Origin: Pseudomonadota bacterium
GTDB taxonomy: Bacteria; Pseudomonadota; Gammaproteobacteria; Burkholderiales; Burkholderiaceae_C
Direction of reading: 5' to 3'
Assembly (NCBI GenBank): GCA_030535425.1
Contig: JAUNHQ010000002.1
Coordinates: 73,093-128,727, forward strand
DNA length: 55,635 nt
A program made the translations under genes and the position numbers. The notes below the pieces were generated by a model. The model saw only the letters and a list, made by a program, of their open reading frames with translations, made no database searches and had not been told where the DNA came from. Below are positions 1,638-20,335 of the stretch, one piece after another (the stretch's first letter is position 1; each line of letters begins with the position of its first letter).

Positions 1638-3059
1638 ATGCGCCCAGCTCCGCACATGCTGCGCTACCCGCTGCCCTACGCCTTTGCCCGCACCGCCGGG
1701 CTGCTGCTGGAAGATGACGGCCATGGCCTGACGCTGTGGCACGACGGCACGCCAGACGCCAACCATCTGAGTGAAGTCATGCGCCGCTACGGCGGTGGCC
1801 AGGCACCGCTGACCCTGCAGCAAACCGACTCGCACACCCTGGCCCAACGCATCAGCCACGTCTACAGCCAAAGCGAAAGCAGCGCCGCCGCCGTGGTCAG
1901 CGAAGTCGAAAGCGACGCCGACCTCTCCCGCATCATGCAAGAGCTGCCCGCGGTGGAAGACCTGCTGGAAAGCGCCGACGACGCGCCCATCATCCGCATG
2001 CTCAACGCCCTGCTCACGCAGGCCGCGCGCGATGGCGCCAGCGACATCCACATCGAGCCTTACGAGCGCCACTCCAGCGTGCGCTTTCGCGTCGATGGCG
2101 CGCTGCGCGAAGTGGTGCAGCCCAACCGCGCGCTGCACGCCGCGCTCATCAGCCGCCTGAAGATCATGGCGGACTTGGACATTGCCGAAAAACGCCTGCC
2201 GCAAGACGGCCGCATCAGCCTGCGCCTGGGCACTCGCGCCATTGATGTGCGTGTGTCCACCATCCCCAACGCGCATGGCGAGCGCGCCGTGCTGCGCCTG
2301 CTGGACAAGTCCGAAAGCAAACTCAGCCTCGAATCCGTAGGCATGCAAGGCACAGTGCTGCAACAGTTCGAGCAGCTCATCGCCCAGCCCCACGGCATCA
2401 TCCTCGTCACCGGCCCCACCGGCAGCGGCAAAACCACCACGCTGTACGCCAGCCTGGCGCGGCTGGACGCCAGCCGCAACAACATCATGACGGTGGAAGA
2501 CCCGATCGAATACGACCTGCCCGGCGTGGGGCAGACGCAGGTCAACGCCAAGATCGACCTCACCTTCGCCCGCGCCCTGCGCGCCATCCTGCGGCAAGAC
2601 CCTGACATCGTGATGATTGGCGAAATCCGCGACATCGAAACTGCGCAAATCGCCATCCAGGCCAGCCTGACCGGCCACCTGGTACTGGCCACGCTGCACA
2701 CCAACGACGCCGCCAGCGCCATCACCCGCCTGACCGACATGGGCGTAGAGCCTTTCCTGCTCAGCTCATCGCTGCTGGGCGTGCTGGCCCAGCGCCTGGT
2801 GCGCAAATACTGCACCGCCTGCGCAGGCCAAGGGTGCGATGCCTGCGGCCACACCGGCTACGCGGGCCGCACCGGCGTGTTTGAGCTGCTGGTGGTGGAC
2901 GAAGGCATTCGCAACCAAATCCACGAGCAAGCGCCCGAAGCCGCCATCCGCAATGCCGCACTGGACAAGGGCATGACGCTGATGCGCGACGACGGCGAGC
3001 GTCTGATCGCCCGCGGCATCACCAGCCGCGAAGAAGTGCTGCGCGTCACGCGCGATTGA
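1638..3059 (+). CDS. gspE: Type II secretion ATPase GspE
   Basis: Cytoplasmic hexameric ATPase that drives pseudopilus assembly for type II secretion, 473 residues. Walker A GPTGSGKT lies at 259-266, the Walker B/Asp-box region [12 protein letters not shown] at 321-332 and the His box (LATLHTND) near 350-357. The zinc-binding cysteines are compact, C392-x2-C395-x4-C400-x2-C403, a shorter insert than in many GspE proteins. A PilB/HofB-like type IV pilus ATPase is the main alternative, but adjacency to a secretin supports GspE. No gspF follows: the next gene is an unrelated binding protein. Confidence 0.93.
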
Positions 3060-3082
3060 AAACGCGCCCCAGAAATCCATAT

Positions 3083-3140
3083 AAAAACAGGCATTTGCGC
3101 TTATCTGACGCGCGCGAAAAGCTATATAAATAATAGCAAA
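3083..3140 (+). repeat. Comamonad-type intergenic repeat, copy 1
   Basis: Diverged copy: GGCATTTGCGC box, variable middle with GACGCGCGCG, then the A/T-rich palindromic box GCTATATAAATAATAGC. It lies downstream of gspE. Confidence 0.7.
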
Positions 3141-3180
3141 CCCCGTGCCACAGCCCCTCTGAAAGAGCCAGGCAGCGGCC

Positions 3181-3212
3181 TTGCTTTTGGGGGCAGCCAG
3201 CCCCACTACAAT
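3181..3212 (+). promoter_or_regulatory. Possible sigma-70 promoter of the BMP gene
   Basis: TACAAT (3207-3212) is a good -10 box. The nearest -35-like element TTGCTT (3181-3186) is 20 bp away, longer than ideal. Offered as a weak candidate only. Confidence 0.3.
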
Positions 3213-3292
3213 CGCTCACCCTGCCCCCAGCCAACGCCCCGTGCGGCTGAGGGCAGTTTCATTGACCACCCGGGGCCATGTCGAGGACAACC

Positions 3293-4417
3293 ATGTACAA
3301 AAACCTCGCCGCCACGCTCGTGGCTGCCTGTTTTTCCTTCTCCAGCCTGGCCCAGCCCACGGCTGCCCAATTGCCTACCCGATTGCCCGCCCAACCGCCG
3401 GCGCAGCCTGCCTCTGCGCCCATCAAGGCCGCGTGGGTGTACGTCAGCCCCATCACCGAAGCCGGCTGGACCCAGCAGCACGACCAGGGCCGCCGCGCCG
3501 TGGAAAAAGCCCTGGGCGCGCAGGTGCAAACCACCTTTGTCGAGAACGTGCCCGAAGGCGCCGACGCCGAGCGCGTCATCCACGACCTGGCGGCGCAGGG
3601 GCACGACATCATCTTCACCCCCAGCTTCGGCTACATGGAGCCCACGCTCAAAGTCGCGCGCGACTTTCCGCAGGTGAAGTTCGAATCCGTCACCGGCTAC
3701 AAGCTCGCGCCCAACGTGGCCGCGGCCAACGCGCGCTATTACGAAGGGCGCTACCTGGCCGGCATCGCCGCCGGGCGCATGACGCGCACCCATGTGGCCG
3801 GCTACGTGGCCGGCTTTCCCATCCCCGAAGTGCTGCAAGGCATCAGCGCCTTCACCCTGGGGCTGCGCAGCGTCAACCCCCAGGCCACGGTCAAGGTCAT
3901 CTGGCTGAACGAATGGTTCAACCCCCCGCGCGAGCGCGACGCCGCCATGACGCTGATGAACCAGGGCGCCGACGTGCTGGCCTTTCACACCGGCTCCACC
4001 GCCGTCATGGCCGCCGCCGAAGAACGCGGCCAGCTGGCCGTGGCCTACCACTCCGACATGCGCCGCGTGGCCCCCACGGCGCAAATCGCCGCAGTCACCC
4101 ACCAGTGGGGCGACTACTACACCCGCCGCGTGCAAGCCCTGCGCGATGGCCGCTGGCGCAGCACCAGCACCTGGGGCGGGGTCAAGGAAGGCATGATCCG
4201 CGTCGATGCCTTTGGCCCCAAAGTGCCCCAGGCCGTGCAGACCGAGGTGCTGGCGCGCCAGGCCGACATGGCGCGCGGGCGCCTGGCGCCCTTTACCGGC
4301 CCCATCCGCGACAACACTGGCACCCTGCGCGTGCCTAAGGGCCAGGCACTGAGCGATGAGCAAATCCGCCAGATCAACTGGCTGGCCGAAGGCGTGCGCA
4401 CGCCCTTGCCGCAGTAG
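3293..4417 (+). CDS. BMP-family ABC transporter substrate-binding protein (paralogue 1)
   Basis: Periplasmic binding protein of the BMP/PnrA family, whose characterised members bind purine nucleosides. The start at 3293 is chosen because GAGGA sits 5 nt upstream; an in-frame ATG at 3278 would precede it. A Sec signal peptide (LVAACFSFSSLAQ) is followed by a Pro/Ala-rich spacer and the fold beginning KAAWVYVSPITEAGW. There is no lipobox, unlike paralogue 2 at 21593-22762. The two share blocks such as VPEGAD-ER, SFPIPEVL and NAFTLG/SAFTLG. No ABC ATPase or permease gene is next to it; guanine deaminase lies two genes downstream, which fits a purine role (inference). Confidence 0.88.
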   Translation: MYKNLAATLVAACFSFSSLAQPTAAQLPTRLPAQPPAQPASAPIKAAWVYVSPITEAGWTQQHDQGRRAVEKALGAQVQTTFVENVPEGADAERVIHDLAAQGHDIIFTPSFGYMEPTLKVARDFPQVKFESVTGYKLAPNVAAANARYYEGRYLAGIAAGRMTRTHVAGYVAGFPIPEVLQGISAFTLGLRSVNPQATVKVIWLNEWFNPPRERDAAMTLMNQGADVLAFHTGSTAVMAAAEERGQLAVAYHSDMRRVAPTAQIAAVTHQWGDYYTRRVQALRDGRWRSTSTWGGVKEGMIRVDAFGPKVPQAVQTEVLARQADMARGRLAPFTGPIRDNTGTLRVPKGQALSDEQIRQINWLAEGVRTPLPQ

Positions 4418-4485: not shown

Positions 4486-5463
4486 ATGCACACAAACGAC
4501 CCTTCCCCCTGGCAGCACACGCACCACTTTCACACCCGCCACAGCGGCGGTGCCGAGCAGCGCACCCGCTGGGTGCTGGCGCTGACGCTGGTCACCATGG
4601 CGCTGGAAATCAGCGCGGGCTGGTGGAGCGGCTCGCTGGCGCTGCTGGCCGACGGCTGGCACATGAGCTCGCACGCGCTGGCCATCGGCCTGTCGGTGTT
4701 CGCTTATGCCGCCGCGCGGCGCCTGGCGGGCGATACGCGCTTTGCCTTTGGCACCTGGAAAATCGAGGTGCTGGCCGGCTTTGCCAGCGCCTTGCTGCTG
4801 CTGGGCGTGGCTGTGCTGATGGTGTTAGGCGCTGTTGAGCGCCTGCTCAACCCCCAGCCCATTCATTACCTGGAGGCCATAGGCGTGGCCGTGCTGGGCC
4901 TGACCGTCAACGTGGCCAGCGCCTTGATGCTGGGGCATGCGAGCGGGCATGACCACCACCACCACGGCCACGATCATGGTCATGCAGCGGCGCACGACGG
5001 GCATTTGCACGAAGACCTGAACCTGCGTGCCGCCTACCTGCATGTGCTGGCCGACGCCGCCACCTCCGTGCTGGCCATTGCCGCTCTGGGTGGCGGCTGG
5101 CTGTGGGGCTGGGACTGGCTCGACCCCCTCACCGCCATGGTGGGCGCCGTGCTGGTGGCCCTGTGGGCCAAGGGCCTGCTGGTGCAAACCGGCAAGGTGC
5201 TGCTCGACCGCGAAATGGACGCCCCCGTGGTGGCCGAAATCCGCGACGTGGTGCAAGACCCCCGCTACCCCGGCCACACCCGCGTGGCCGATTTGCACGT
5301 GTGGCGCGTGGGCCAGGCGGCCTATGCCTGCGCCATCACGGTCGTTACCCACGACCGCCAGCTGACCCCCGCTGCCCTGCGCCAGCGCCTGGCCGTGCAT
5401 GAGGAAATTGCCCACTGCACCATTGAAATCCAGCACTGCGGCAGCCCAGACGACCGCTGCTAA
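4486..5463 (+). CDS. dmeF: CDF-family Co/Ni efflux transporter, DmeF-like
   Basis: Inner-membrane cation diffusion facilitator that exports divalent metal with proton exchange. The ATG at 4486 gives 325 residues and a typical DmeF N-terminus with several histidines (WQHTHHFHTRH). Metal-site motifs DGWHMSSHA in TM2 and HVLADAATS in TM5 are present. A His-rich cytosolic loop (GHDHHHHGHDHGH) joins the TM4 and TM5 regions. A C-terminal cytoplasmic domain follows TM6. A longer reading begins at 4417, directly on the stop codon of the BMP gene, but its extra residues do not look family-like. Metal specificity is inferred from similarity to DmeF rather than CzcD. Confidence 0.88.
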   Translation: MHTNDPSPWQHTHHFHTRHSGGAEQRTRWVLALTLVTMALEISAGWWSGSLALLADGWHMSSHALAIGLSVFAYAAARRLAGDTRFAFGTWKIEVLAGFASALLLLGVAVLMVLGAVERLLNPQPIHYLEAIGVAVLGLTVNVASALMLGHASGHDHHHHGHDHGHAAAHDGHLHEDLNLRAAYLHVLADAATSVLAIAALGGGWLWGWDWLDPLTAMVGAVLVALWAKGLLVQTGKVLLDREMDAPVVAEIRDVVQDPRYPGHTRVADLHVWRVGQAAYACAITVVTHDRQLTPAALRQRLAVHEEIAHCTIEIQHCGSPDDRC

Positions 5464-17029: not shown

Positions 17030-17761
17030 ATGTCCCCCCTGAGACTGGGAGCCTACAAACTGCCCGCAGCCGAAGTCGTGCTGGTACAGACGCTGTTTCG
17101 CCTGTACGCGCACGGCAGCGCGTTTCGTTGGAGCTTCGTCACCGCCCCACCCTACGACGCATTGCTGGTCGATGGCACCACTGGCGAACCCCTGGACGCC
17201 GAAATCGCCGGCATGGCCCGTGCCGTGTTGCGCCTGACGCGCATGAACGCCCCCGACGCACCCAACACCCTGCAACGCCCCATTCGGGCCGACCGGCTGC
17301 AAGAGTGGCTGCGCGTTACCGAATTACAGTTGCTCGACACCCAGCTGGCCACCCAACCTGCTGAGGAAGCCCCCGCTGCGGCGACACCCGGCAAAGACAC
17401 GGCGGCTGCGGCTGCCACAGCTGCTGCCTCAGCAGCAGCCGTGCGCTTCAAGCTGCGCCGCTGGCCGCCCGCCTCGCTGCTGCGTGGCGATGCCCACCGC
17501 ATCCGCATGGCCACGCTGCTGTCGCGCCGCGCACTCAGCGCCGCCGAGTTGGCTGACATCAGCCAGCAGCCCGTGCAAGCATGCCAGGCTTTCTTGCAAA
17601 ACCTGCAAACCCTGGGCCTGGTTGAGTTGCCGCCTGCGGCGCCCCCGGCAGCTGCCGTGGCCCAGCCCGCCGCTGACGCCCGGGCAGCCGCCCCCGCCCC
17701 TGCCAAGCCCAGCTTTGCACGCGGGTTGATCTCAGGCATCCGCCGCCGCCTGGGGCTTTGA
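17030..17761 (+). CDS. CvnC/DUF742-like winged-helix protein, first gene of a GTPase-Roadblock operon
   Basis: 243 residues. Residues 1-105 form an alpha/beta domain with no motif I can name. Residues 108-137 are an Ala-rich linker. Residues 138-200 read as a winged helix (LSRRALSAAELADIS, then FLQNLQTLGLVEL), patterned like the DUF742 (CvnC) proteins of Streptomyces conservons. A second Ala/Pro-rich linker leads to a basic amphipathic tail (FARGLISGIRRRLGL) that could bind membrane or a partner. Gene 2 starts 21 bp after the stop. The domain call rests on sequence pattern and on neighbours, so function is inferred. Confidence 0.65.
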   Translation: MSPLRLGAYKLPAAEVVLVQTLFRLYAHGSAFRWSFVTAPPYDALLVDGTTGEPLDAEIAGMARAVLRLTRMNAPDAPNTLQRPIRADRLQEWLRVTELQLLDTQLATQPAEEAPAAATPGKDTAAAAATAAASAAAVRFKLRRWPPASLLRGDAHRIRMATLLSRRALSAAELADISQQPVQACQAFLQNLQTLGLVELPPAAPPAAAVAQPAADARAAAPAPAKPSFARGLISGIRRRLGL

Positions 17762-17782
17762 AAAGCGCGCCTTGTTGCCATC

Positions 17783-18319
17783 ATGAACGAATACAAAATC
17801 CTTTTCACTGGCACCATGGGTGCTGGCAAAACCACGGCCATCGGCGCCGTCAGCGAAACGCCGCCCATCGTCACCGATGTGGAAAACAACGACCTGTCGC
17901 ATAGCAAGGCGCGCACCACCGTCGGCCTGGACTTTGGCCAGTTCACGCTGGACAACGGCGACCGCATCCGCCTGTTCGGCACACCGGGGCAGTCGCGCTT
18001 TGACTTTCTCTGGAAAATCCTGTCGAAGAACGCACTGGGCATGGTCATCCTGACCGATAACTCGCGCCCGGATCCACTGGGTGATCTGCGCGTGTACCTC
18101 GAAGGCTTTGCCGACGACCTAAAAACCATGCCCTGCGCCATTGGCGTAGGCCGCCTGCGCGAACACTCCAGCCCCTCGCTGGAGGATTACATCGACGAGT
18201 TGTCCCGTCATCAACTGGTGCTGCCCGTGCTGGATGTGGACGTGCGCCGGCGCGAAGACGTCATCCTGTTGATCGATACCCTGCTGGCCCAGTTGGAAGC
18301 CGGCATGTCTGGAGAATGA
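17783..18319 (+). CDS. CvnD/MglA-like small GTPase
   Basis: 178-residue Ras-superfamily prokaryotic G-protein. The P-loop GTMGAGKTT is at residues 10-18, switch I threonines fall in ARTTVGLDFG (43-52), and the G3 region reads LFGTPGQSRFDFLW (64-77). That G3 form matches CvnD proteins of actinobacterial conservons and recalls TVPGQ of MglA rather than DxxGQ of Ras. No NKxD-type G4 is visible: the expected place reads IGVGRLREH. It sits between the winged-helix gene and a Roadblock gene that overlaps its stop region, so it probably works as their nucleotide switch. Confidence 0.85.
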   Translation: MNEYKILFTGTMGAGKTTAIGAVSETPPIVTDVENNDLSHSKARTTVGLDFGQFTLDNGDRIRLFGTPGQSRFDFLWKILSKNALGMVILTDNSRPDPLGDLRVYLEGFADDLKTMPCAIGVGRLREHSSPSLEDYIDELSRHQLVLPVLDVDVRRREDVILLIDTLLAQLEAGMSGE

Positions 18320-18324
18320 ACCCC

Positions 18325-18717
18325 ATGTCCGTGCAACTGAATCTGGCCCCTACCGCCAAGGTCATCGCCCAGCGCGAGGCACAAAGTTTTCTGAACGAAG
18401 TCAATGGCGTCACTGCCGTGGTCGTGGCCTCTGTCGATGGCTTTGACGTGGCATCGGCCATGCGCTCAGGCGATGCCGCGCGCGTGGCTGCCATGGCCAG
18501 CTCCATTGCGGCTATCAGCGCCGTGGTGTCGCAAGAAGCCAGCCTGGGCCGCAACAAGAGTGTCACCATTGACACCGAGTCCGGTTTTGCCGTGGTCTAC
18601 AGCGTGCATCGTGCCGACGCGGCGCTGGTCATTAACGTCATCGCCGATGGCAGCGCCATCCTGGGCCAGGTCAATTACCGTGCCGCCCAGTTCGCCAAAA
18701 CCCTGACCGACGCATGA
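18325..18717 (+). CDS. Roadblock/LC7 (CvnB/MglB-like) protein
   Basis: About 130 residues with the Roadblock/LC7 fold pattern: FLNEVNGVTAVVVASVDGFDVA, a central helix AARVAAMASSIAAISA, then strand-rich VTIDTESGFAVVYSV and LVINVIADGSAILG. Family members act as GTPase-activating or scaffold partners of MglA/CvnD proteins. Start 18325 is preferred because GGAG lies 10 nt upstream. An ATG at 18316 overlaps the GTPase stop codon but has GGAG too close. Translational coupling to the GTPase is likely. Confidence 0.88.
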   Translation: MSVQLNLAPTAKVIAQREAQSFLNEVNGVTAVVVASVDGFDVASAMRSGDAARVAAMASSIAAISAVVSQEASLGRNKSVTIDTESGFAVVYSVHRADAALVINVIADGSAILGQVNYRAAQFAKTLTDA

Positions 18718-19079
18718 GCCAGGCCCAACTCCGCCAAGCCCTTGAGGACATGGCCGCTATGCCCGGCCTGCAGGGCTGCGCCCTGGTTGAGATTGAGGCC
18801 GGCATGGTCTGGCACCACGCGGGCTACATCGAAGGTGTGCAAACCTTCGCTGAAGCCGCCAGTGACTACTGGCGGCTGTACCAGCGCCTGGCGCACCAGT
18901 TTCAGGACCTGGGCGACCTGAAGGCCTCCGTCATGATGCATGCGCATGGCCGTATCACCTTGCTGCCCTGCGGCAGCGGCATGCTGCTGGTCACGCTCAC
19001 GCGGCAAAAGTCTGAAATCGACTGGACCTTGTGGCAAGAAAAAACCCGGGCACTGGCGCGGCTGGTAGACGCGCTGTAG
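18714..19079 (+). CDS. Small protein, probable divergent Roadblock-like partner
   Basis: 121 residues, start codon overlapping the stop of the Roadblock gene (ATGA). Not a family I can name with certainty. The pattern resembles the upstream Roadblock protein: LEDMAAMPGLQGCALVEI (helix then strand), a central helix with WRLYQRLAHQF, strand ASVMMHAHGRITLLP, strand GMLLVTLTRQ and a final helix. An uncommon feature is the WHHAGY stretch in the first strand pair. Operon position suggests a second partner or regulator of the GTPase. Confidence 0.65.
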   Translation: MSQAQLRQALEDMAAMPGLQGCALVEIEAGMVWHHAGYIEGVQTFAEAASDYWRLYQRLAHQFQDLGDLKASVMMHAHGRITLLPCGSGMLLVTLTRQKSEIDWTLWQEKTRALARLVDAL

Positions 19080-19149: not shown

Positions 19150-19176
19150 AAAAAAACGCGGCCTTCAAGGCCGCGT
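19150..19176 (-). terminator. Rho-independent terminator after the DUF1521 gene
   Basis: Perfect hairpin ACGCGGCCTT/AAGGCCGCGT at 19156-19176. On the minus strand it is followed by seven T, and lies 67 bp past the DUF1521 stop. It may also serve the convergent operon. Confidence 0.85.
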
Positions 19177-19243: not shown

Positions 19244-20335
19244 TCAACGCAGCGCACCCAGCAAGAGCCTGGCAAGGGCGTCACGGCCTTTGTCCTCGTT
19301 GGCGAAAACGGCCACGCCATCGACCTGGCCAATGGCGCCCAGCGAGCGCGTGACCGCGTTGTAGGGCAGCAGGGCCGGGTTATTGGCGCGCCAGGCCAGT
19401 GAGCCACCGCTGCGCGTGTCCACGCTGCCATTGCGGTGATGAATGGTGAGGGTATTGGCGTCAGGTTGCCGCACTTCGGCGCGCGCAATATCCAGCACCG
19501 GCTTGTACGCGATGGGTGCAGGCTTGTAATCGCAGCGGCCGCTTTCCCAGTTGCTGCTGCCGCTGCCCAGATCCAGGCCGCCGCCGAACAGGCCGGTCAT
19601 CAGGTACAGGCCCAGCGCCTGGCCGAACTGCTGGGTGAATTCATAGGGCTTTTCGGCGCCGGGCTTGGTAATGTTGAAGTCTTCCTGCGTGGCGAGCTTG
19701 CCCGTGTCGGGGTTGATCCAGCCTTCGCCCTTGGCGTTTTCATGCACGGTGAAGCCATCGGTCACAGCCCAGTCCAGCGCCTGGCCGCCGCGGTCGGCGT
19801 ATTCCACTTTCAAGTCGCCCAGCTCGTTTTGGCTGATGCCCGAGATTTTCATGGCATGGTCGCCGCGCGTGACCGTGACTTCACTGGCCACGTACATGTC
19901 CTTGCCGCCTTTCCAGGGCTCGGTGTCAATGGTGATCTTGGTGCCGTCTTCGAGCTGGAAGGTGGTCTTGCCCCAGAAGTCGGCATCGGTTTTGCCGTCT
20001 TTGTTCCAGTCGATGTGCGGATCGCCCCAGATGTTGGTGACTTCGCCGTTCTGCTTGTTGACGATCTTGATTTGCGAATTCTTCTCGTCCAGTTGCAGCT
20101 CGTAGTTGCCCAGGTCAACATTGGCTTTGCCGTTGCCGGGGTTGTTCACTGTCCACTTGGCATCCTGGCCGGTAGGCAGCTTGCAGCGGCAAAAGCAGCC
20201 TTTTTTGTCCACAGTGCCCAGCTCAAACTGGTTGGTGTGCGGCAGCACAGCTCGGTTGTTGCCGGTGGGGGTAACGGGGCCAAATACAGCGGCGCCAACA
20301 GCTGCAAAGCCAAAGGCGGGGGACGAGCCAATCAT
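19244..20335 (-). CDS. DUF1521 metal-inducible self-cleaving protein
   Basis: 363 residues. Residues 100-190 match the DUF1521/MIIA domain known from the Bradyrhizobium effector NopE1: WGDPHID at 103-109, where the family cleaves itself between Asp and Pro on calcium binding, followed at once by DWNKDGKTD (109-117), an EF-hand/dockerin-type DxNxDGxxD loop. A CFCRC cluster lies at 47-51. The C-terminal 130 residues contain a Gly-rich hydrophobic patch (LMTGLFGGGLDLG) and no family I know. No clear signal peptide is present. AGGAGG stands 7 nt before the ATG, a very strong site. Its own promoter and operator are upstream. Role unknown; secretion is possible. Confidence 0.85.
   Translation of the reverse strand: MIGSSPAFGFAAVGAAVFGPVTPTGNNRAVLPHTNQFELGTVDKKGCFCRCKLPTGQDAKWTVNNPGNGKANVDLGNYELQLDEKNSQIKIVNKQNGEVTNIWGDPHIDWNKDGKTDADFWGKTTFQLEDGTKITIDTEPWKGGKDMYVASEVTVTRGDHAMKISGISQNELGDLKVEYADRGGQALDWAVTDGFTVHENAKGEGWINPDTGKLATQEDFNITKPGAEKPYEFTQQFGQALGLYLMTGLFGGGLDLGSGSSNWESGRCDYKPAPIAYKPVLDIARAEVRQPDANTLTIHHRNGSVDTRSGGSLAWRANNPALLPYNAVTRSLGAIGQVDGVAVFANEDKGRDALARLLLGALR

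Follow-up and report, generated by a model that had tools for sequence, protein, structure and literature searches.

A candidate Group 3 MglA GTPase operon with a receiver-like, winged-helix partner protein in a bacterium of the Burkholderiaceae_C

We analyzed a stretch of 55,635 nucleotides from a Pseudomonadota bacterium (assembly GCA_030535425.1, contig JAUNHQ010000002.1; hereafter, the window), which carries at positions 17030 to 19079 an operon of four genes, g1 to g4, for a partner protein, a small MglA-type GTPase, a Roadblock protein and a Roadblock-like protein. Judged by sequence, this operon fits the Group 3 type of MglA system, known since 2014 (PMC4316618; here and below, citations refer to the relevant sections of the papers), and not an unreported conservon that lacks its kinase. 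A preliminary description had seen in it a conservon-like module without a sensor kinase, and this interpretation was partly supported: a kinase-less operon of GTPase, Roadblock, and winged-helix proteins is indeed present, but this anatomy was already known as Group 3, and a search of the genome (88.6% complete) for CvnC/DUF742 yielded nothing at E ≤ 0.1.

Group 3 was reported almost only from beta- and gamma-Proteobacteria, and it combines MglA and one or two MglB proteins with a conserved protein of unknown function that has a receiver-like N-region, a variable linker, and a winged-helix C-region; its GTPase has GTPGQ, a deviating G4 motif, and DAR at G5 (PMC4316618). The operon has GTPGQ, a threonine at G2 in place of the arginine finger, a partner with receiver-like and winged-helix domains, and g3, probably together with g4, in the place of MglB; its G4 deviates as expected, and its G5 reads DVR, not DAR. 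The features are as follows.

17030..17761, + strand: g1, partner protein of 243 residues with degenerate receiver, linker, winged helix, linker, and C-terminal amphipathic helix (open reading frame, tblastn, AlphaFold model)
17030..17353, + strand: g1 receiver-like N-domain, residues 1-108, with D48 kept, the lysine replaced by R83, and P84 kept (hhalign to alignment A6, order of elements in the model)
17441..17626, + strand: g1 winged-helix domain, about residues 138-199, with invariant W145-P146 (SmtB profile match in the PDB, model)
17717..17758, + strand: g1 C-terminal amphipathic basic helix, residues 230-243 (model helix 230-241, R238 in 27 of 27 rows, tail statistics)
17783..18319, + strand: g2, MglA-type small GTPase of 178 residues; G1 GTMGAGKTT, G3 GTPGQ, degenerate G4 GRLR, G5 DVR (open reading frame, Pfam, profiles, tree)
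18316..18717, + strand: g3, MglB/CvnB-like Roadblock protein of 133 residues with invariant D41-G42 (Pfam, alignment, PDB profile)
18714..19079, + strand: g4, diverged Roadblock-like protein of 121 residues without the DG pair (Pfam, alignment, profile, tblastn, AlphaFold)
19156..19176, no strand assigned: inverted repeat between g4 and a convergent DUF1521 gene, called as a minus-strand terminator and possibly serving both genes

The operon and its homologous loci

The four-gene operon was confirmed. The gap of 21 bases between g1 and g2 and the ATGA overlap between g3 and g4 were read in the sequence as first described, and the g2-g3 junction, described before as an overlap or near-overlap of the stop region, is also an ATGA overlap. 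When the window was compared with the related locus L006, the differences at codon positions 1, 2, and 3 numbered 33/33/73 in g1, 13/10/53 in g2, 11/5/42 in g3, and 12/6/41 in g4, and because these changes concentrate at third positions, all four genes look coding. When a genome collection was scanned once for the g2 GTPase, 30 homologous loci were obtained, mostly from Comamonadaceae (Ottowia, Variovorax, Ramlibacter, Lampropedia, and others), plus two from Massilia and several from metagenome bins; in the host genus, 17 of 29 genomes had a GTPase match. By tblastn, g1, g2, and g3 stood together and colinear in all 30 loci, excluding a chance grouping, and g4 was present in 19. The survey of gene order that had been proposed therefore held for the first three genes and only in part for the fourth, and g4, not found in 11 of the 30 loci, is not an obvious candidate for the input role once offered to it. 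Split genes were observed twice, the GTPase in two pieces in L031 and g3 in two pieces in L015.

The absence of a sensor kinase at the locus was also upheld, as tblastn with four CvnA proteins and a histidine kinase pattern detected none in the window, a limited test that distant kinases could escape. Near the other loci, a histidine kinase-like open reading frame appeared only at one, L086.

The partner protein g1

The AlphaFold model of g1 had a mean predicted local distance difference test score (pLDDT) of 83.5 and a predicted template modeling score of 0.49, with two low-confidence linkers. Its N-terminal part contained a strand at 4-9, a helix at 13-27, strands at 34-36 and 42-48, a short helix, strands at 63-70 and 80-82, and a helix at 87-108, a fold that we take to be a receiver minus two helices; then came a linker, a winged-helix pattern at 140-199, the second linker, and a helix at 230-241. 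The related alignment A6, composed of nine partner proteins from genomes of the same order, has invariant Asp55, Lys94, and Pro95, and its profile matched mostly receivers in the PDB (best, NtrC, 0.0018). The g1 N-domain aligned with the A6 receiver domain in hhalign (probability 84.6, E 6.8e-6), and Asp48 of g1 paired with Asp55 and Arg83-Pro84 with Lys94-Pro95. In the g1 alignment, D48 was kept in 23 of 27 rows, R83 in 25, and P84 in all 27, and inspection by eye revealed no acidic pair where strand 1 ends. The alignments and the model thus identify this N-domain, previously regarded as unknown, as a degenerate receiver, as predicted for Group 3 partners (PMC4316618). Since an arginine replaces the lysine and the aspartate is not universal, the domain is probably not switched by ordinary phosphorylation; it nevertheless has the look of an input domain, and the earlier proposal that it may replace CvnA is plausible.

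The winged helix that had been assigned to g1 was borne out by the model pattern and by the g1 family profile, which matched the winged helix of SmtB in the PDB at 5e-5; the Pfam matches of the single sequence were weak (TrmB 0.009, MarR_2 0.015). The mean number of lysines and arginines (K + R) in the recognition segment was 0.81 in g1 (27 rows), 0.11 in A6 (9 rows), 1.08 in CvnC, 1.89 in ArsR, and 2.11 in MarR, with p 7e-4 for g1 against ArsR, in a comparison whose ArsR and MarR sets included a few wrong-frame rows. Five partners of the DUF4388 type had 2.60, above ArsR. A specific homology between g1 and CvnC was considered and dropped: hhalign gave probability 84, E 7e-6, and a score of 36.2, against 10.8 ± 2.1 for 60 column shuffles, but the cleaned ArsR and MarR controls matched about as well. 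The g1 profile scored 35.7 with ArsR and 30.6 with MarR, CvnC scored 37.1 and 38.2, and the mutual g1/CvnC scores, 36.2 and 34.8, were about level with these values. The A6 and CvnC profiles gave no match when compared. Scores of g1 with the DUF4388-type winged helix were slightly higher, 42.7-44.6, versus 36.4-37.2 for ArsR and MarR against the same set.

For the C-terminal helix, we collected the longest same-strand open reading frame ending just upstream of the GTPase at 85 loci, left out nine by eye, and obtained 76 partners with 43 distinct tails. Over the last 22 residues, the median maximal hydrophobic moment was higher in the 43 tails, 0.65, than in the C-termini of a control set of 297 (0.375; Mann-Whitney 1e-13), and a strict threshold (moment > 0.6 and charge ≥ +2) was passed by 24 of 43 tails versus 28 of 297 controls (Fisher 1.5e-11). 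When the residues of each tail were shuffled for comparison, the mean z was 0.60, with positive values in 34 of 43. By eye, comparable tails were recognized in partners encoded next to such GTPases on plasmids of Thermus, where they are annotated as DUF4388, and of Deinococcus, where they are annotated as hypothetical and look DUF4388-like, and in the BLUF-containing partner of Agarilytica; the C-termini of 13 CvnC proteins showed a helix-like segment that is less basic. Membrane tethering or protein docking is a possible role of the g1 tail. In the relevant sections of PMC4316618 and the other literature found, a C-terminal amphipathic helix of the Group 3 partner is not described.

A universal trans-acting arginine finger in the tail was rejected as a candidate: R238 stands in 27 of 27 rows of alignment A2, but other partners have only lysine or another spacing, and such a finger appears unlikely from these sequences. 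Separately, the partners of family f77 (L118-L122) had no match to the g1 profile, yet they end in a tail like LLSRIIRRIRGL; the partner of L118 had no Pfam match.

The GTPase, the Roadblock proteins, and a fifth gene

The GTPase g2 carries the motif LFGTPGQSRF, with GTPGQ at residues 66-70, and RTTVG at G2, with threonine where Group 1 has the arginine finger. Its best Pfam family was ATP_bind_1 (3.1e-9), and its profile matched Sec4/Rab GTPases best in the PDB (1.5e-8), with MglA lower (1.6e-4). The G4 motif, NKxD, is degenerate: the window has GRLR, without the aspartate, and GRLx or GRMx occurred in 25 of 30 window-type rows, whereas most A6-type relatives keep TKxD. This degenerate G4 of the clade is new with respect to the open literature found. 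G5 is DVR in the window and its close relatives. In all 27 rows of alignment A1, the P-loop was invariant, as were GTPGQ, the two threonines of G2, and the aspartate and arginine of G5. In a tree of 91 GTPases, the 30 window-type rows grouped together (98/92), with Ottowia sequences closest to g2, which makes an Ottowia the probable host, and the four CvnD rows formed their own clade (100/99) without the window; in this tree, the bootstrap had not settled, several branches were long, the root was a midpoint, and no published Group 3 rows were included. The gene thus encodes a GTPase of the MglA/CvnD type, as first described, but outside the CvnD clade.

The same genome holds a second MglA-type GTPase (38% identity). 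The system to which it belongs (L003, 4074-6909) consists of a long partner of 518 residues, the GTPase, and a 216-residue gene product with a very weak Roadblock match, and upstream (1716-3328) lie genes for the canonical 120-residue MglB, a PAS protein, and a phosphonate-binding-type protein. At about 4600-4720, within the partner gene, a short run of N is flanked by the repeat DMLDALKKLDASADAAPR, present twice, probably an assembly artifact. Another genome of the same class, G389, has five MglA-type GTPase loci (L108-L112), some with g5-like genes, once on the opposite strand.

By its sequence, g3 is an MglB/CvnB-like Roadblock protein, in line with its first description: Robl_LC7 matched at 1.5e-9, the best PDB matches of its profile were CvnB5 (4.7e-8) and then a Robl_LC7 protein (5.6e-8), and the DG pair (D41-G42) is invariant. 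The g4 protein lacks this pair, and its Robl_LC7 match (3.2e-4) reached 20.8 bits against a cut-off of 23. Its AlphaFold model (pLDDT 90.6) has the order alpha-beta-beta-alpha-beta-beta-beta-alpha, presumably the Roadblock topology, and LAMTOR2 was among the best PDB matches of its profile (0.044). As supposed from the start, g4 is probably a second, diverged Roadblock-like protein.

A fifth gene, g5, was found by tblastn directly downstream of the operon in 26 of the 30 loci, including all 11 that lack g4. The loci without an adjacent g5 (L007, L008, L010, and L017) all have g4, and at L008 it cannot be judged, as the sequence ends about 300 bases past g4. In the genome under study, g5 lies outside the window, and a copy with 91% identity is found on another contig between open reading frames read by eye as holA and proA. 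The median identity of g5 to the L006 copy was 82%, and the medians of the operon genes to the window copies were 49-73%; this high conservation makes g5 a concrete and easy target. A Pfam scan of g5 gave nothing above chance; in the PDB, its profile matched a Roadblock protein best (0.004), the next matches being unrelated and at 0.2 and above, and the g4 and g5 profiles resembled each other with probability 82.5. Among 250 genomes of the same order, the GTPase occurred in 10 of 12 g5-positive genomes versus 17 of 238 others (Fisher 2e-9), the two g5-positive genomes without it being G143 and G245. We regard g5 as a likely fifth, Roadblock-like partner of the system. As an adjacent Group 3 gene, it was not met in the parts of the open-license literature found, where no search by its name is possible. 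The profiles of g4 and g5 gave no significant match to that of g3, and a reading of either as an ordinary MglB was rejected.

Further downstream, the window holds the convergent gene of a DUF1521 protein (19244-20335); among the clusters of genes that flank the other loci, no homologue of it was found. The terminator call in between is weak alone, as five terminator-like sites were found against 2.6 ± 2.0 in shuffles. The shared flanking clusters inspected, with names assigned by eye, were dnaE, LysR, DoxX, pirin, and TonB/TolA-like.

Proposed switch, alternatives, and comparison with known systems

We propose that g1 could be the input and anchoring subunit that sets where or when g2 is loaded with GTP, functionally like the RomR/RomX exchange complex. 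With no kinase encoded in the operon, the receiver-like domain would sense a protein or signal that acts upstream; the winged helix would be turned to the GTPase and not to DNA, and the tail would dock the complex at the membrane or at a partner. As MglB does, g3 would stimulate GTP hydrolysis, and g4 and g5 might modulate this GTPase-activating protein (GAP) as co-GAPs or heterodimer partners, much as MglB of Myxococcus is assisted by a second factor, RomY. The output would most likely act on type IV pili or a different surface machine. The assignment of g1 to the loading and anchoring side, and of g3 with g4 and g5 to the GAP side, follows from analogy: in Myxococcus, RomR/RomX is the guanine nucleotide exchange factor (GEF) and MglB with RomY the GAP (PMC9481161), and for conservons, MfpC, the homologue of CvnC, has been cited as GEF and the Roadblock protein MfpD (CvnB) as GAP (PMC13343842, PMC13015309). 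We regard this whole reading, a Group 3 switch with g1 as input and anchor, g3 as GAP with g4 and g5, and a surface machine as output, as evenly poised between right and wrong. Should g1 prove to be an exchange or anchoring factor gated by its receiver, and not a transcription factor, the way in which such switches take in signals in the absence of a kinase could be probed directly with purified proteins.

The link to pili came from genome counts. In two overlapping samples, the GTPase profile matched 27 of 250 genomes from the order and 39 of 299 from the phylum. The type IV pilus family PilM occurred in 27 of 27 GTPase-positive genomes versus 202 of 250 overall (Fisher 0.002), and in the phylum sample in 38 of 39, the exception being G397, versus 162 of 299 (Fisher 1.7e-10). 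Moreover, in Snodgrassella, whose mglA was placed in Group 3, mutation of an orphan mglB altered colony flares taken as pilus motility (PMC11112851).

Several points weigh against the proposed switch. The PilM association may partly reflect shared ancestry, and PilM is a common, loose marker that also matched the Escherichia coli and Bacillus subtilis controls; besides, 223 of the 250 genomes lack the GTPase profile, and many of these have PilM. Since g1 matches CvnC no better than the ArsR and MarR controls, an exchange-factor role like that of CvnC/MfpC is only suggested, by analogy, and MfpC is reported to be confined to Actinobacteria (PMC13015309). The wrong-frame control rows touch the K + R comparison, the target of the tail could be a protein and not a membrane, with the strict threshold passed by only part of the tails, and g4 and g5 resemble each other, with no significant profile match to g3. 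In mirror-tree analysis, in which shared ancestry is still included, g1 to g4 correlated mutually at 0.78-0.92 and g5 with them at 0.26-0.67, so g5 tracks the operon less closely, and this counts mildly against an obligate complex.

The alternatives differ in which component they reinterpret. If g1 were a transcription factor, with a receiver and a DNA-binding winged helix, the GTPase module would regulate gene expression; the architecture is like that of response regulators, the winged helix is of the ArsR/MarR class, Wuichet and Sogaard-Andersen suggested a gene-expression role for Group 3 (PMC4316618), and deletions in the cvn8 conservon alter gene expression (PMC13343842). We consider it unlikely, because the recognition segment is poor in K and R (0.81 in g1 and 0.11 in A6 versus 1.89 in ArsR) and because the conserved amphipathic helix on its flexible linker suits tethering better. 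A decaying or nucleotide-blind g2, perhaps no longer specific for guanine and acting as a scaffold, would explain the GRLx or GRMx at G4 and the aspartate lost in the window; however, the P-loop and the G2, GTPGQ, and G5 residues named above do not vary among the 27 rows, and both Group 2 and Group 3 are known to deviate at G4, with the Group 2 protein CvnD9 still hydrolyzing GTP (PMC4316618), which leaves this explanation improbable. Even less credit, indeed very little, goes to a true Group 2 conservon minus its kinase: it would account for GTPGQ, for CvnB5 as the closest PDB match of g3, and for a winged helix with a short C-terminal helix as in CvnC, but the GTPase falls outside the CvnD clade, DUF742 is not matched, the gene order differs, and Group 3 was already defined for such anatomy (PMC4316618). 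The same machinery with an output other than type IV pili, such as metabolism or another envelope process, is quite possible, if somewhat doubtful: the distribution is patchy (GTPase in 27 of 250 genomes, PilM in 202), and none of the inspected flanking clusters looks pilus-related by name, while PilM in nearly every GTPase-bearing genome and the Snodgrassella phenotype (PMC11112851) speak for pili.

Beyond the operon, we tentatively, and with more doubt than belief, propose that MglA GTPases not of the Myxococcus type share a modular input protein with a swappable sensor, a winged helix that faces the GTPase and not DNA, and a C-terminal amphipathic docking helix, and that its proteobacterial form is a five-protein machine in which g4 and g5 tune the GAP. 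The sensor might, rather speculatively, be a receiver, DUF4388/PATAN, a BLUF photoreceptor, or none, as in CvnC. An extension of this idea to every partner is weakened by the basic recognition segment of the five DUF4388-type partners; if true, bacteria would possess, in this modular input protein, a counterpart of receptor-coupled GEFs. On the Thermus plasmids (L128, 2570-7125; L141, 2593-6787), DUF4388 and an MglA-type GTPase lie with protoglobin and EAL genes, possibly a gas-sensing cyclic di-GMP neighborhood, and on the Agarilytica plasmid (L131, 3267-4943), a partner module with a fused BLUF photoreceptor domain lies next to genes for an MglA-type GTPase and a Roadblock protein.

Among known systems, the operon shares with Group 3 the partner with receiver-like domain, variable linker, and winged helix, the GTPGQ-containing MglA, and one or two MglB proteins in the same neighborhood; it differs in DVR at G5, in the loss of the G4 aspartate, and in the C-terminal amphipathic helix and adjacent g5, which the relevant sections of PMC4316618 do not mention. 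Among open-license papers, one experimental study of Group 3 was found, that of Snodgrassella; the Snodgrassella/Neisseria group 3 mgl locus is similar in having one mglA, two coupled mglB, and one orphan mglB (PMC11112851), which may be g5 under another name. Five loci of family f44 (L079, L081-L084), Neisseriaceae by inference, differ in a longer partner and a gene for 211-214 residues after the GTPase. Actinobacterial conservons (CvnA-D, Mfp) resemble the operon in the CvnB-like g3, the GTPGQ GTPase, and a winged-helix partner ending in a helix-like segment, whereas the operon has no detected kinase, a fused receiver in the partner, a GTPase outside the CvnD clade, and no DUF742 match. With the Roadblock proteins of Ragulator/LAMTOR, there is the weak profile similarity of g4 to LAMTOR2 and no functional link. 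In Myxococcus, the Group 1 GTPase has the arginine finger and TVPGQ where g2 has threonine at G2 and GTPGQ, the regulators are not encoded beside mglA (PMC4316618), and the relevant sections report no winged helix (PMC9481161). Nevertheless, RomR is a receiver-domain protein (PMC6785124), and with RomR/RomX and with MglB and RomY, Myxococcus provides dedicated exchange and Roadblock GAP complexes that act on an MglA GTPase (PMC9481161), the likeness on which our proposal for g1 and g3 is modeled.

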